Assembly: GCF_023074835.1 (NCBI RefSeq)
Contig: NZ_JALLGW010000002.1
Span: 620,001-684,000, forward strand
DNA length: 64,000 bases
Direction of reading: 5' to 3'
From: Halomarina salina
GTDB lineage: Archaea; Halobacteriota; Halobacteria; Halobacteriales; Haloarculaceae
The notes below the pieces were generated by a model. That model was given only the letters and a program-made list of their open reading frames with translations. It was not told where the DNA came from and made no database searches. The position numbers were made by a program, and so were the translations under genes. This document shows, piece after piece, positions 12,990-17,987 of the stretch (the stretch's first letter is position 1; each line of letters begins with the position of its first letter).

Positions 12990-13595
12990 GTGACCCCCAT
13001 CAACCGAGCGGAGGTCGAGCGGCGTCGCGAGCGACTGCTGGAGGAGTACGGCCGCGAGGGCGTCGACCTGGTCGAGACGCGCTGGGAGTCGCCGCCCGAC
13101 GAGTTCGAGGAGTTCGTCGCCGGGTCGCGGGCGGGCTACGTCGGCGGCGCGTACTGCTGGGTCACCCGGACGGGAGAGCAGTTCGCCGACCTCACCGAGT
13201 CGATGCCGGAGAGCGCGCTCCCCGGCCGGAACGAGGAGCGCGCGTTGCTCGTCCTCGGTCGTGACGACTCGGGATGGGGCGTCCCCGGCGGCGGACAGGA
13301 GGACGACGAGACGTACGAGCAGGCGGCCGTTCGGGAGGTCCGCGAGGAGACCGGCGTCGACTGCGAGGTGACCGACCTCTTCCGCCTCGAACGCGTCGAG
13401 CGCCACTGCACGGACCCGGACGACGACCGGGTGAACCACATGCTGTACGGCTTCTTCGACGCGGACTACGCTGGCGGCGAGATACGCATCCAGCCCGGCG
13501 AACTCCACGGCGCGGCGTGGTTCCGCGAGCCACCGGCCCGAATCCACCCAGCGACCGAGACGAAGGCGGCGGAGTGGTTCGGTGAACGGCAGTGA
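12990..13595 (+). CDS. Nudix hydrolase
   Basis: The protein is 201 residues from GTG 12990. A complete Nudix box spans about residues 98-120: GGGQEDDE, then REVREETGVD, giving the G-x5-E-x7-REVxEExGx pattern with all metal-binding glutamates. The N-terminal 80 residues are helical and of unknown role. The C-terminal part (VNHMLYGFFDADYAGGEIRIQPGELHGAAWF) is the usual Nudix beta-sheet end. Substrate (nucleoside diphosphate derivative) is unknown. It lies 62 bases after the nitronate monooxygenase gene on the same strand. ATG is missing near the start, so GTG is the best choice but is not certain. Confidence 0.88.
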   Translation: MTPINRAEVERRRERLLEEYGREGVDLVETRWESPPDEFEEFVAGSRAGYVGGAYCWVTRTGEQFADLTESMPESALPGRNEERALLVLGRDDSGWGVPGGGQEDDETYEQAAVREVREETGVDCEVTDLFRLERVERHCTDPDDDRVNHMLYGFFDADYAGGEIRIQPGELHGAAWFREPPARIHPATETKAAEWFGERQ

Positions 13596-13696: not shown

Positions 13697-16600
13697 TCAC
13701 TCGACCGTGACGGTGACGGTGTCGGTGGTCGTCGCGCCGGTGTTGTCCGTGGCCCTCAGCGTCACGGTGTAGCTGCCAGCGGAACCGTAGCTGTGCGCGT
13801 TCCACCAGCCACTCCCGCTGGTCCCGTCGCCGAACGTCCAGTCGAGCGAGTCGACCCAGCGCTCGTCGCCCGAGGTGTCCCGCACGCTGAACGTGACTCG
13901 CTCACCGACCGAGGCGTCGGTCGTGCTCGGGACGACGCGCGCGATGGGGTCGCTCAGGTCGGAGACGGCGACGGTGACGGTGTCGGTGGTCGTCGCGCCG
14001 GTGTTGTCCGTGGCCGTCAGCGTCACCGTGTACTCGCCCGCCTCGTCGTAGCGGTGGGCGCTGTACCAGCCCTCGTCGGCGGAGCCGTCGCCGAACGTCC
14101 AGTCGAGCGCCGTTATCCACCGGCCGCTGCCGGAGGTGTCGTCGACGCGGAACGCGAGTCGCTCGCCGACGGTGGCCTCGGTCGTCGCGAGGTCGATGGT
14201 CGCGACCGGCGGCCGCTCGGGTGCCGGGTCCGTGTCGACCTCCGAGAGGTTCGACGTGACCGGAATCGAGGGGTCGCCGTTCAGGTTCGACTCCTCGTCG
14301 GTGACGCTCCCGCTCCCCAACCGGAGGTCGGAGTCGAGGGCGGTCGCCACCTCGTCGAGGTAGCCGCGCTGGTCGGCAGGGGCGGCGGCACTCCCCATGA
14401 GGACGACCGCACCGCCCGAGTCGGCGAACGACGCGACGGCAGCGAGTTCCGCGTCCGAGAAGGCGCTCGCCGGCGTCGTGACGACGAGCGCGCGGGCCGA
14501 CGCGAGGCGCTCGGCAGACGCCTCGGTCGTCAGGTCGTTCACCTGTTCGAACAGCGTGTCCCGCCCTTCGAGGTAGCGCTGGTAGTACGCGGCGTCCTCG
14601 TTCGACAGCGAGTAGGAGAGGCCGAACTGTCCGTGGCCGCCCTCGATGAGGACCGTGTCGTCGTCGCGTGCGCTCAGGTCGTCGAGTAGCTCCGTGACGA
14701 ACGCAAAGTTCTCGTAGCCGGACGTGTCGACCGGGTACCCCTCGGCTTCCTCGTAGGTCTCGCTGATGAGAGGAGCACCGAACACGGCGACTCGACTGTC
14801 GAGGTCGACCGCCGCCAGCGGGAGGTCACCGTCGGTGGAGACGTCTCCCCCACTCCGGGTCGCGCTCGGCGCGGCGAACACCGGGACGCGGTCGTCGTCG
14901 ACCGGCCCGGAGTCGGTGACGACGCTCGTCGGGGTCGGGAAGAACAGGTCCTCGACGGGACGGTCACGGATGGGCGAGGAGTCGAACGGGTCGCTCTCCG
15001 ACCAGACCTCGCGGCCGGCGTCGCGGGCCGCGAACTCCGCCGCGAGGAACTCGTCGTGGCGAGCGAACCCCGACCCGTAGACGCGGGCGTGGCCCGCCTC
15101 GACGACGCGCCGGTTGTACAGCGTGTCGCGGCTCCCCGAACCGTCGGCGTCGTACGTGAGGTAGCCGAGGACACGGCCGAACTCGTCCCGGACGGGTTCG
15201 GTCGCGTCGAACGAGAGCCCGACCGTATCGCCGGGGGAGAGCTGCTCCCGAGCGAACGCCGTCGCCGCCTCACCGGCGGTTTCGAGGTAGTCGTACGAGT
15301 CGATGCCCTCCCACTCCTCGGCTCGCTCGGTGCTGGTCGCGCTTCCCGTCTCGGGCGTGTCGAACCCGAGCGTCCGGATAGCCTGCTCCTGGCCCTCCTC
15401 GAACCGGACGTCGACCGTGTCACCGTCGGTGACCGAGACGACCTCGACGAGGTACGTCTCGTCGCGGTCGAGTTCGAGGCTGAGGCCCTCTCGCTCGTCG
15501 AAGTACTCGAAGTCGGCGTTGAACTCGGAGGTCGTCGGGACGAACGGGGCACCGGCGTTGTTCTCCGGGTCGTAGACCTGGTCGTCGTTGAACCGGAACG
15601 GCGCGCCGACCGCCGTCGCGACCTCGTTCAGGTTGGCGGTCTCGTCGAAGTCGTTGTAGTCCGACTGGTCGAACAGGAAGAGCGACCCCCCCGACTCGAC
15701 GAACGTCGCGAGCGCGTCGCGTTCGGCCGCGGAGAACGCGGCGGACGGCGAGGTGACGACGAGGCCGTCTGCATCGGAAAGCCCGGCCGACCCGAGCCCG
15801 TCGAAGACGTCGAACGCATCGTTGAAGTTCGACGTCGTCGGGACGTACGGCGCACCCGCGTTGCTCTCGGTGTCTTCGACCTGGTCGGCGTTGAACCGGA
15901 AGGAGAGGTCGAGGCTCGACGCCAGTTCGTCGAGGTTCGCGGTCTCCTCGTTGGTGAACTCCGACTCGTCGAACAGGAACAGGCTCCCGCCGTCGGCGAC
16001 GTGCTCGGCGACCGCCGCGAGCTCCGCGTCCGGGTACGGCTCTGCGGGTGAGGGGATCACGAGGAGGTCCGCGCCGTCGAGCGCCGAGTCGCCGCCGTCC
16101 GACCCATCGCCGACGGTCAGGTCGGCCTCGACCGAGACCGGGTCGGCGTCGCCTTCGAGCGTGATCGTCGCGACCTCGCTCGTCGGCGGGTTCTGGACGC
16201 CGTCGATCTCGACGACGACGGGACCCGCGACGTCGGTCTGGTAGCGCCCGGAGAGGTCGAACGTCGCCGCCGACCCGCTGTAGCTCCCCTGGTTGACCCT
16301 GATCTCGCTCGTGTCGGTCCCGTCCGAGAGCGTCCGGGTCATCGTCACCGTGACGTCGTCCTGGTCGAGCCCGTCGAGACTCGCCGCGTCGTACTCGACG
16401 GTGATCGTGTCGACCTCGTCGCCGTCGGCGCCCGCCTCCCCGAAGGTGAGGTCCTCGAGCGTCCAGGTGTGCGTCGAGGGCTCGCCAGGCGTTCCCGGGT
16501 CGGCCACGAGCACGTCGTCGCCCGCTTCGCCGCCGTCGGAACCTCCCGCGAGCGACTCCGTGGTCGCCTCGAACGCGTAGCCCTCGCTCTCGACGGTCTC

Positions 16601-17461
16601 CGCGAACGACCCGAAGTTCGAGGAGTCGTAGTAGGTGTCGTGGGCGTCGTCCCAGAGTATCGTTCCGCCGTCCCCGACCGTCGACGAGAGGAGTGCGAGC
16701 ACGAACTGCTCGTTCGCACCGTCGAACTCGCCGTCCGCTATCAGTTCCGGGGTCCCGAACCCGACGACGTCACCGTCTCGTGAGACGAGCGGTATCTCCT
16801 CGTCGGCAGCGTAGATGTGAGAGGCCTCGTCGCCGGCGTCGTCGACGTTCTGGGCCGTCGGTTCGGCCCAGACCATCACCGTCGAGGCGTCGGTCAGTGC
16901 CCCGCCATCGGGGGCGACCTGGCTCGCCGTGGACGGGAACGTGAGCGACGCGCCGCCGAGCACGTCCGTCGTCGCCCGGAGGTCGTACCCCGCGTCCTCC
17001 GCGTACTGCTCGAACGAACCGTGACTCGAGAGCGTGTAGAACTGGTCGTGGCCCTCGTCCCAGAGGACGGTCCCGTCGCCGCCCAGCTTCACGTCGAAGA
17101 CGTTGAGCAGGAACTCCTCGTTGCCGTAGCTGAAGTCCGTGTCGTCCTGACCGATGGGGGCACCGACGCCGACGACGGTGCCCGCGCTCGCGACGAGCGG
17201 AATCGGTGTCCCGTCGGGGTAGATGGTGGCGTTCTCTTCCCCGTCGTCGTCGCCGTTGTACGCCGTCGGCTCGGCCCAGACCGCGACGAGCGAGTCGTCG
17301 GTCAGCGGCTCGCCGTTCGCGTTCAGCAGACTCGCCGTCGAGTCGAACACGAGCGAGTCGATGGTGTCGCTCGACTGGAGCAGGTCCGCGCTCGCCGCCC
17401 CCGTCACGCCGAGCGATGCCGCGCCCGCACCGAGTGCCGTCAGGAATGTGCGTCGTCGCAT
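13697..17461 (-). CDS. Large Tat-exported multidomain protein with thermonuclease and PKD domains
   Basis: The protein is 1,254 residues from ATG 17461. MRRRTFLTALGAGAASLG is a twin-arginine signal. Visible order: two similar repeats with DDSLVAVWAEPTA / DASTVMVWAEPTA (about 30-165, 170-310); a beta-rich part (about 330-440); two DUF4350/GATase-like units (LLVIPSPAEPY...GGSLFLFD, about 462-560; GLVVTSPSAAF...GGSLFLFD, about 565-660); a staphylococcal-nuclease-type domain (about 665-825) with DGDTVD, IRTLGFDTPET and EFGR, so the Asp, Arg, Asp, Glu and Arg active-site positions are all present; a third GATase-like unit (about 885-1070); two PKD domains (WTFGDGS, WTFGDGT; about 1085-1254). It should act outside the cell, probably cutting nucleic acid while bound to a surface or matrix through its repeat domains. 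Function of the other units is unknown. Confidence 0.85.
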   Translation of the reverse strand: MRRRTFLTALGAGAASLGVTGAASADLLQSSDTIDSLVFDSTASLLNANGEPLTDDSLVAVWAEPTAYNGDDDGEENATIYPDGTPIPLVASAGTVVGVGAPIGQDDTDFSYGNEEFLLNVFDVKLGGDGTVLWDEGHDQFYTLSSHGSFEQYAEDAGYDLRATTDVLGGASLTFPSTASQVAPDGGALTDASTVMVWAEPTAQNVDDAGDEASHIYAADEEIPLVSRDGDVVGFGTPELIADGEFDGANEQFVLALLSSTVGDGGTILWDDAHDTYYDSSNFGSFAETVESEGYAFEATTESLAGGSDGGEAGDDVLVADPGTPGEPSTHTWTLEDLTFGEAGADGDEVDTITVEYDAASLDGLDQDDVTVTMTRTLSDGTDTSEIRVNQGSYSGSAATFDLSGRYQTDVAGPVVVEIDGVQNPPTSEVATITLEGDADPVSVEADLTVGDGSDGGDSALDGADLLVIPSPAEPYPDAELAAVAEHVADGGSLFLFDESEFTNEETANLDELASSLDLSFRFNADQVEDTESNAGAPYVPTTSNFNDAFDVFDGLGSAGLSDADGLVVTSPSAAFSAAERDALATFVESGGSLFLFDQSDYNDFDETANLNEVATAVGAPFRFNDDQVYDPENNAGAPFVPTTSEFNADFEYFDEREGLSLELDRDETYLVEVVSVTDGDTVDVRFEEGQEQAIRTLGFDTPETGSATSTERAEEWEGIDSYDYLETAGEAATAFAREQLSPGDTVGLSFDATEPVRDEFGRVLGYLTYDADGSGSRDTLYNRRVVEAGHARVYGSGFARHDEFLAAEFAARDAGREVWSESDPFDSSPIRDRPVEDLFFPTPTSVVTDSGPVDDDRVPVFAAPSATRSGGDVSTDGDLPLAAVDLDSRVAVFGAPLISETYEEAEGYPVDTSGYENFAFVTELLDDLSARDDDTVLIEGGHGQFGLSYSLSNEDAAYYQRYLEGRDTLFEQVNDLTTEASAERLASARALVVTTPASAFSDAELAAVASFADSGGAVVLMGSAAAPADQRGYLDEVATALDSDLRLGSGSVTDEESNLNGDPSIPVTSNLSEVDTDPAPERPPVATIDLATTEATVGERLAFRVDDTSGSGRWITALDWTFGDGSADEGWYSAHRYDEAGEYTVTLTATDNTGATTTDTVTVAVSDLSDPIARVVPSTTDASVGERVTFSVRDTSGDERWVDSLDWTFGDGTSGSGWWNAHSYGSAGSYTVTLRATDNTGATTTDTVTVTVE
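13709..13754. repeat. Direct DNA repeat within the PKD region, copy 1
   Basis: 46 bases are identical to 13970-14015. They encode the same DNTGATTTDTVTVT end of each PKD domain. The repeat unit is 261 bp (87 residues). Confidence 0.8.
13970..14015. repeat. Direct DNA repeat within the PKD region, copy 2
   Basis: Identical to 13709-13754 over 46 bases. Identity at DNA level points to recent duplication or gene conversion between the two PKD units. Confidence 0.8.
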
Positions 17462-17600: not shown

Positions 17601-17987
17601 TCAGTGCTCGCTCACGAACTCGACGAGGATGCCGGCGGTCGAGTCCGGGTGGCAGAACGCGACCTCGTGACCCCACGCGCCGGGCCGTGGCTCCTCGTCG
17701 ATGAGGCGGACGCCGTTGTCCTGGGCACGCTGGAGCGTCGCGGGCATGTTCTGGGTCGCCATCGCCAGGTGGTGGATGCCCGGCCCGTTCTTGTCGAGGT
17801 AGCGCTGGACCGTCCCCTCCTCGGTCGGTTCGAGGAGTTCGAAGTAGCCGTCACCGACGTCGAGGAACTGGACGTAGAGGTCGTCGAGCATCTCCTCGTG
17901 GACGACGCGCGTCTCGAACAGCGTCGAGAACAGCGACGCCATCGCGTCCGAGTCCGTGGTGGCGATTCCCGCGTGATGGAACTGCAT
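17601..17987 (-). CDS. mce: Methylmalonyl-CoA epimerase
   Basis: The protein is 128 residues with two paired beta-alpha-beta-beta-beta (glyoxalase/VOC) modules. FHHAGIATTDSDAMASLF gives the first metal-binding His. FELLEPTEEGTVQRYLDKNGPGIHHLAMAT gives the Glu and second His. LVEFVSEH gives the last Glu. It interconverts (2R)- and (2S)-methylmalonyl-CoA so that the mutase downstream in propionate metabolism can act. The mutase large subunit is encoded next to it, upstream on the same strand. It has its own TATA-like GCTTATTG at 18011-18018, 26 bases before the start. Confidence 0.93.
   Translation of the reverse strand: MQFHHAGIATTDSDAMASLFSTLFETRVVHEEMLDDLYVQFLDVGDGYFELLEPTEEGTVQRYLDKNGPGIHHLAMATQNMPATLQRAQDNGVRLIDEEPRPGAWGHEVAFCHPDSTAGILVEFVSEH

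Follow-up and report, generated by a model that had tools for sequence, protein, structure and literature searches.

Domain insertion is common in proteins; insertion of a domain into its own copies, several levels deep, is rare. A published precedent is the recursive insertion of hybrid-motif domains in the cyanobacterial RNA polymerase SI3, where domains of the same kind are inserted into one another over several levels (PMC13114784). Here we report a likewise nested arrangement, in another protein and another fold, encoded in a 64,000-nucleotide stretch of the haloarchaeon Halomarina salina (assembly GCF_023074835.1, contig NZ_JALLGW010000002.1, positions 620,001 to 684,000; hereafter the window, whose own numbering is used below). 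The gene, at positions 13697 to 17461 of the minus strand, encodes 1,254 amino acids and a stop codon and is predicted to specify an exported enzyme of the staphylococcal-nuclease (SNase) type with three DUF4350/GIFT units, two of them nested. It differs from SI3 also in that its inner cassette apparently moved between nuclease lineages, and in that such units occupy, in relatives, a second host domain, the SNase domain itself.

Parts of this protein have described counterparts. HVO_1477, likewise an exported SNase of a haloarchaeon (Haloferax volcanii), has a surface module at its C-terminus and is required for growth of H. volcanii on DNA (PMC3929857). It is, however, a 327-residue lipoprotein made of an SNase domain and a lamin tail, for which no DUF4350/GIFT unit is listed, whereas the window protein is a 1,254-residue substrate of the twin-arginine translocation (Tat) pathway with three such units, a beta domain and PKD domains. 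The accessory units match the same Pfam families as the DUF4350/arCOG01314 proteins, the GldG-type ABC transporter subunits and the GIFT domains of IFT52 and Wbp1/OST48 (PMC5898192, PMC7226087, PMC10191852), which are related to a flavodoxin-like, beta-galactosidase-trimerisation-like fold (PMC5898192, PMC7226087). None of those proteins is a nuclease; they are anchored in membranes or are subunits of complexes, and in the window protein the unit is interrupted by a copy of itself. Nuclease and export are ordinary in kind; interest centres on the nesting of the units and on their exchange. We found no description of the SNase and DUF4350 architecture in the literature searched.

Probable nesting of the DUF4350/GIFT units

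The gene is a single uninterrupted open reading frame (ORF) with its ATG at 17461 and its stop codon at 13697-13699, residue r lying at 17461-3(r-1) downwards; all features below are on this minus strand, which the preliminary description of the DNA had omitted. Nesting is read from the sequence, namely from the domain order, from the interruption of the DUF4350 match and from relatives that have or lack whole units at the same point. On this basis the order is N1-[N2-[beta]-C2]-C1-SNase-unit3-PKD-PKD, in which unit 2 (N2-C2) sits between the halves of unit 1 (N1-C1) and the beta domain sits inside unit 2, and each N-half would fold together with its mirrored C-half. The N-half of the outer unit, N1 (residues 34-167, positions 16961 to 17362), carries the motif W-D-E-G-H-D-Q and scores 202 bits with a hidden Markov model (HMM); that of the inner unit, N2 (residues 172-306, positions 16544 to 16948), carries WDDAHDTY and scores 170 bits. 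The beta domain (residues 312-456, 145 amino acids, positions 16094 to 16528) is delimited by comparison with L081, the closest nested relative, and by an AlphaFold2 (AF2) model; C2 (residues 457-557, positions 15791 to 16093) by its identity to C1 and to L081; and C1 (residues 558-662, positions 15476 to 15790) by its identity to relatives with a single unit and by the DUF4350 match of rejoined N1 and C1.

The Pfam families DUF4350, ABC_transp_aux and IFT52_GIFT match three times, at about 460-555, 562-655 and 985-1075, and the whole-protein scores exceed the curated cut-offs (46.3 against 30.4 bits for DUF4350, PF14258; 62.4 against 34.7 for ABC_transp_aux, PF09822; 48.2 against 27.2 for GIFT, PF23355). 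Each match covers the C-half of a unit only. The remainder of a unit is best seen in one-unit relatives, in which an N-half of about 135 residues is directly joined to the C-half and both the DUF4350 and the ABC_transp_aux profile match across the junction. N1 is 54-72% identical to this N-half and 47% identical to N2, while C1 is 58-63% identical to the C-half and C2 is 54% identical to C1. Joining the outer halves (31-168 and 559-662) again in silico gives a DUF4350 match of 35.9 bits, above the cut-off of 30.4, as compared to 27.6 bits for C1 alone and no match for N1 alone; the rejoined inner unit reaches 30.1 bits, just under the same cut-off. Because rejoining N1 and C1 restores the match, the N-terminal tandem repeat of the preliminary description is to be understood as a pair of N-halves: its three diverged copies plus a further repeat were a misreading of two nested units and one contiguous unit.

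The presence or absence of whole units was followed among 99 distinct relatives, selected for possessing SNase and unit 3, so that the occurrence of unit 3 in all of them is no sign of its importance. MAFFT alignments A5 and A8 were used, as A1, A2 and A4 put the inner units of nested relatives in the wrong place. In one-unit relatives, the alignment passes directly from query residues 1-165/167 to residues 558-561. The insert, residues 168-557 (positions 15791 to 16960), is absent from the syntenic orthologues L002 and L003, which, in two congeneric genomes (G002 and G007), have one uninterrupted unit at the same locus and are flanked by the same pair of genes. L082 and L083, whose SNase is 87% identical, also have one unit. 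Conversely, L081, with the order N1-N2-beta-N3-C3-C2-C1, has one extra contiguous innermost unit, N3-C3, exactly between beta and C2. Its remaining halves are 71-81% identical to their window counterparts (80% for N2, and 81% between C2 and the middle C-half of L081), and the nearest other relatives of N2 are the middle units of nested proteins.

The number of N-halves equals that of C-halves in 93 of the 99 relatives, 86 having at least one unit and 7 lacking both kinds of half. The other six are accounted for one by one: L035 is frameshifted, L132 is truncated, L103 has an internal deletion, in L093 a beta domain splits an N-half, L096 is diverged, and in L137 half of unit 3 was counted as a C-half. 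Furthermore, in 15 non-redundant nested proteins, the distance matrices of N- and C-halves correlate best under mirrored pairing (0.79, the best of 12 class-consistent schemes), as compared to 0.51 for parallel pairing and 0.46 for the best of 5,000 random pairings. This mirrored co-divergence supports nesting and falls short of proof, because shared ancestry inflates such correlations. An artefact of frameshift or assembly is ruled out by the single open frame and by the same nested halves, 53-81% identical, in the independent genomes of L031 and L081.

Nuclease domain, export signal and surface modules

The SNase domain (residues 665-828, positions 14978 to 15469) is identified by Pfam, NCBIfam and Protein Data Bank (PDB) matches, by conservation and by the AF2 model. 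The Pfam SNase family (PF00565) matches residues 695-822 at 34.4 bits against a cut-off of 21, and S. aureus nuclease chains are among the sequence matches in the PDB. D679, D681, R696, D701, E704 and R763 align with D19, D21, R35, D40, E43 and R87 of S. aureus thermonuclease (Nuc), and these six catalytic residues are 100% conserved in the 40-64 relatives compared. In the AF2 model of residues 27-1078 (1,052 residues; predicted local distance difference test, pLDDT, 79.6; predicted template modelling score, pTM, 0.45), the SNase OB-fold (model residues 641-795) gives a VIA Z of 18.6, with 132/135 residues aligned at a root-mean-square deviation of 2.1 A. Fold and catalytic residues are thus common to both proteins. 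The window protein nevertheless differs from Nuc and from EcnA/NucI: identity is 22-29%, the NCBIfam EcnA/NucI equivalog cut-offs are not reached (83.8 against 180 and 36.9 against 250), and a family-specific segment, E716-W717-E718-G719, nearly invariant in relatives, follows the catalytic Glu. Sequence and model together support an exported staphylococcal-nuclease-type enzyme with an intact active site and predicted catalysis, in agreement with the complete thermonuclease initially described.

The protein starts with a Tat-type signal peptide (residues 1-26, MRRRTFLTALGAGAASLGVTGAASAD, positions 17384 to 17461); its N-terminus reads MRRRTFLTALGAG and contains the twin-arginine stretch MRRRTFL. 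This signal fits the exported protein of the preliminary description, whose length is confirmed as well. A twin-arginine (RR) motif precedes the first domain in 86 of the 99 relatives. The lipobox and lamin tail of the HVO_1477 type are absent from the window protein, which has no cysteine at all in its 1,254 residues and ends in a PKD tail instead.

Unit 3, a contiguous DUF4350/GIFT-type unit recognised by HMMs (residues 835-1075, positions 14237 to 14959), directly follows the SNase domain, and residues 835-985 form its N-half. It is followed by two PKD domains, each matched above cut-off by Pfam PKD_4, as previously noted. PKD domain 1 (residues 1084-1166, positions 13964 to 14212) resembles collagenase PKD chains; PKD domain 2 (residues 1170-1254, positions 13700 to 13954) is 65% identical to it and reaches the end of the protein, and no C-terminal anchor follows in the sequence. 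Tails of relatives are also surface modules, with a lamin tail (LTD) in 25 of the 41 scanned and PKD, dockerin and Ig-like domains in others. A lamin tail, as in HVO_1477, ends many relatives, including a second family member of the H. salina genome (contig C1:1028920-1030116; L092:3819-5504). This second copy is composed of SNase, unit 3 and the lamin tail; the N-terminal units are absent, and no obvious signal peptide is seen in the open frame read.

The three GATase-like units first proposed stand insofar as three DUF4350/GIFT-family matches are found; these cover C-halves only, and glutaminase chemistry does not stand, the protein having no cysteine. An active class I glutamine amidotransferase is excluded for the same reason. 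In the AF2 model, strands and helices alternate. The Foldseek and VIA matches listed for this model of 1,052 residues include no GIFT or GATase structure, SNase entries filling the list of VIA; this silence is uninformative on the units, which are split or are small parts of a long model. Outer, middle and inner units nearly all retain the D and H of the motif D-x-x-H-x-Q, which suggests that the units bind a ligand; some inner and SNase-inserted units have a degraded motif.

The beta domain has no Pfam match, is 81% identical in L081 and is modelled by AF2 as all-beta. Foldseek matches to the whole model repeatedly include bacterial adhesin folds, and the domain is probably Ig/adhesin-like; sequence and model bear out the junction of a nuclease with surface-type beta domains. 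In L093 and L094 it lies within the N-half of the third, innermost unit, and not between N2 and C2, so that it has more than one insertion point. At five nested loci devoid of an internal beta domain (L033, L046, L103, L107 and L111), the nuclease gene is followed in the same orientation by one for a protein of about 870-975 residues with two copies of the beta domain (at 9675-12482 in L033 and 9798-12722 in L046). These neighbour proteins are probably secreted; both of those scanned have CarboxypepD_reg domains and a repetitive C-terminal part, with a weak bactofilin-like match in one of them. That the beta domain is fused in one lineage and adjacent in another hints that it links the nuclease to a surface polymer.

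Distribution of the family and history of the nested cassette

The SNase and unit 3 core is found in 112 of 392 genomes of the haloarchaeal order; in a phylum-wide sample beyond this order, only the SNase part is matched, and never SNase with unit 3. The exact domain order of the window protein is found in no other of the 99 relatives, and PKD tails are rare. The unusual combination of the preliminary description therefore holds for the nesting and the PKD tail only, and not for the core.

The number of units varies widely across relatives. Fourteen have one or more whole units inside the SNase domain, between the segment of the catalytic Glu and the next helix (query 721/722). Such SNase-inserted units are seen for instance in L041, L043, L044, L045, L091, L095 and L123, two in tandem occurring only in L095. 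At three loci, next to a full nuclease gene lies a further ORF that encodes one N-C unit but no nuclease (L042:5296-6729, L135:6473-7891 and L011:3942-4484), and that of L135 also matches DUF1102. The nuclease gene is split by apparent frameshifts in L084 (G332), L035 (Natrialba asiatica) and L099.

In the tree of the SNase and unit 3 core, nested proteins fall in two separate, well-supported places. One is a clade of 22 proteins, mostly from family f7 (apparently Natrialbaceae). The other is a small PKD clade composed of the window protein, L081 and L084, which are nested, and L082 and L083, which have one unit. As the nested cassette is common to these two branches, it was probably transferred between them, with breakpoints near residues 120 and 613. 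Consistent with such a transfer, the inner cassette of the window protein is 73, 80 and 66% identical to that of L031, of the large clade, in N2, beta and C2, as compared to 52% in SNase and 50% in unit 3. Had only the inner cassette evolved more slowly, flat values would not be expected between L031 and L037, both of the large clade, yet these two are 64-80% identical in every block.

The gene is flanked by a methylmalonyl-CoA epimerase-like gene (17601-17987) and a NUDIX-like gene (12990-13595), both named from their sequences and not from a family search, and this gene order is conserved in G002 and G007. The locus is old, and the gene occupying it is a mosaic: residues 1-120 are closest to the sister-genome orthologue L002 and the remainder is closest to L081-L083, so that the window copy looks like a mosaic made at a locus which holds the one-unit form in sister genomes. 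Within the PKD clade, the nest may have been either gained or lost. Taken as a family, these exported archaeal nucleases quite likely have one module, probably ligand-binding, that repeatedly inserts into itself (up to three levels) and into the catalytic domain, cassettes moving between lineages by recombination and leaving natural empty, one-, two- and three-level states.

Proposed role, alternatives and significance

The window protein is most likely exported and anchored in the matrix, where, like HVO_1477, it would attack extracellular DNA as a Ca2+-type nuclease; this target is proposed because of the export signal, the surface tails of relatives and the intact nuclease. The DUF4350/GIFT modules, with their conserved D-x-x-H-x-Q, and the PKD and beta domains could bind an extracellular polymer or a surface partner and hold the nuclease there. 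SNase, presumably with Ca2+, would then cut extracellular DNA to oligonucleotides. Structural DNA is present in a haloarchaeal biofilm (PMC5118699), and the cleavage might serve either phosphate and nucleotide scavenging or matrix turnover. HVO_1477 makes the role on extracellular DNA put forward in the preliminary description plausible by analogy. The nest would evolve as whole cassettes are inserted, lost and passed between haloarchaeal nucleases. As a whole, this explanation, namely a Tat-exported SNase-type nuclease with three DUF4350/GIFT modules, two of them nested, and two PKD domains, anchored, acting on extracellular DNA and evolving by cassettes, appears reasonably likely to us.

Several points weigh against it. 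An AF2 model of residues 27-665, built with 12 nested sequences, had a pLDDT of 48 and was discarded, and the good model (27-1078) has a pTM of only 0.45. Unit 3 alone is under the Pfam cut-offs (23.0 bits for DUF4350 and 21.4 for IFT52_GIFT), so that the family naming rests on the whole protein and on the rejoined unit. The ligand-binding role of GIFT/DUF4350 units is a published proposal and not a proven function: sugar binding has been proposed for GIFT domains (PMC7226087), and extracellular complexes for DUF4350 proteins (PMC5898192). Across 69 loci, no recurring gene partner was found beyond a few mostly spurious antisense ORFs, and this lack of a conserved neighbourhood provides no operon evidence in general. 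Finally, the pairing of N1 with C1 and of N2 with C2 is deduced from the sequence. This last point also favours the alternative that there is no nesting, N- and C-halves being separate small domains which were independently duplicated in tandem and whose counts are equal by coincidence, since two such duplications would give N N beta C C too. We nevertheless regard it as highly improbable: the profiles cross the N/C junction in one-unit relatives and the DUF4350 match is restored in the rejoined outer unit, counts are equal in intact relatives, L081 has its extra contiguous unit exactly between beta and C2, whole N-C units are found elsewhere, including the interior of SNase, and the mirrored halves co-diverge.

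If the units are nested, they might still be mainly structural spacers or oligomerisation domains, nesting being a neutral elaboration without binding role. The degraded motif of some inner and SNase-inserted units and the widely variable unit number would fit this, as would the proposal that arCOG01314 DUF4350 proteins form homomeric or heteromeric complexes (PMC5898192); the retention of D and H in almost every outer, middle or inner unit makes it rather doubtful, although it deserves more weight than the absence of nesting. As for the target, the nuclease could act mainly against foreign DNA or in competition, on DNA from lysed rivals or on viral or transforming DNA that arrives at the cell surface, and not in feeding or matrix remodelling. 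Being secreted and modular, with a patchy distribution and an apparent horizontal exchange, it has features expected of interaction genes. However, no recurring neighbourhood points to defence or toxin systems, a pattern search for close relatives found none in viral contigs, and cells require the best-studied haloarchaeal SNase to grow on DNA (PMC3929857); we thus hold a role mainly against foreign DNA to be unlikely.

With regard to the preferred explanation, an exported nuclease with nested modules, close relatives have zero, one or two extra levels, even at the same locus in sister genomes, and a second insertion site lies within the staphylococcal nuclease, an enzyme that is a classic model. 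Direct tests of how nested domains fold and evolve are thereby made possible. More generally, a common set of exported haloarchaeal nucleases, undescribed in the literature searched, may drive the turnover of extracellular DNA in brines.

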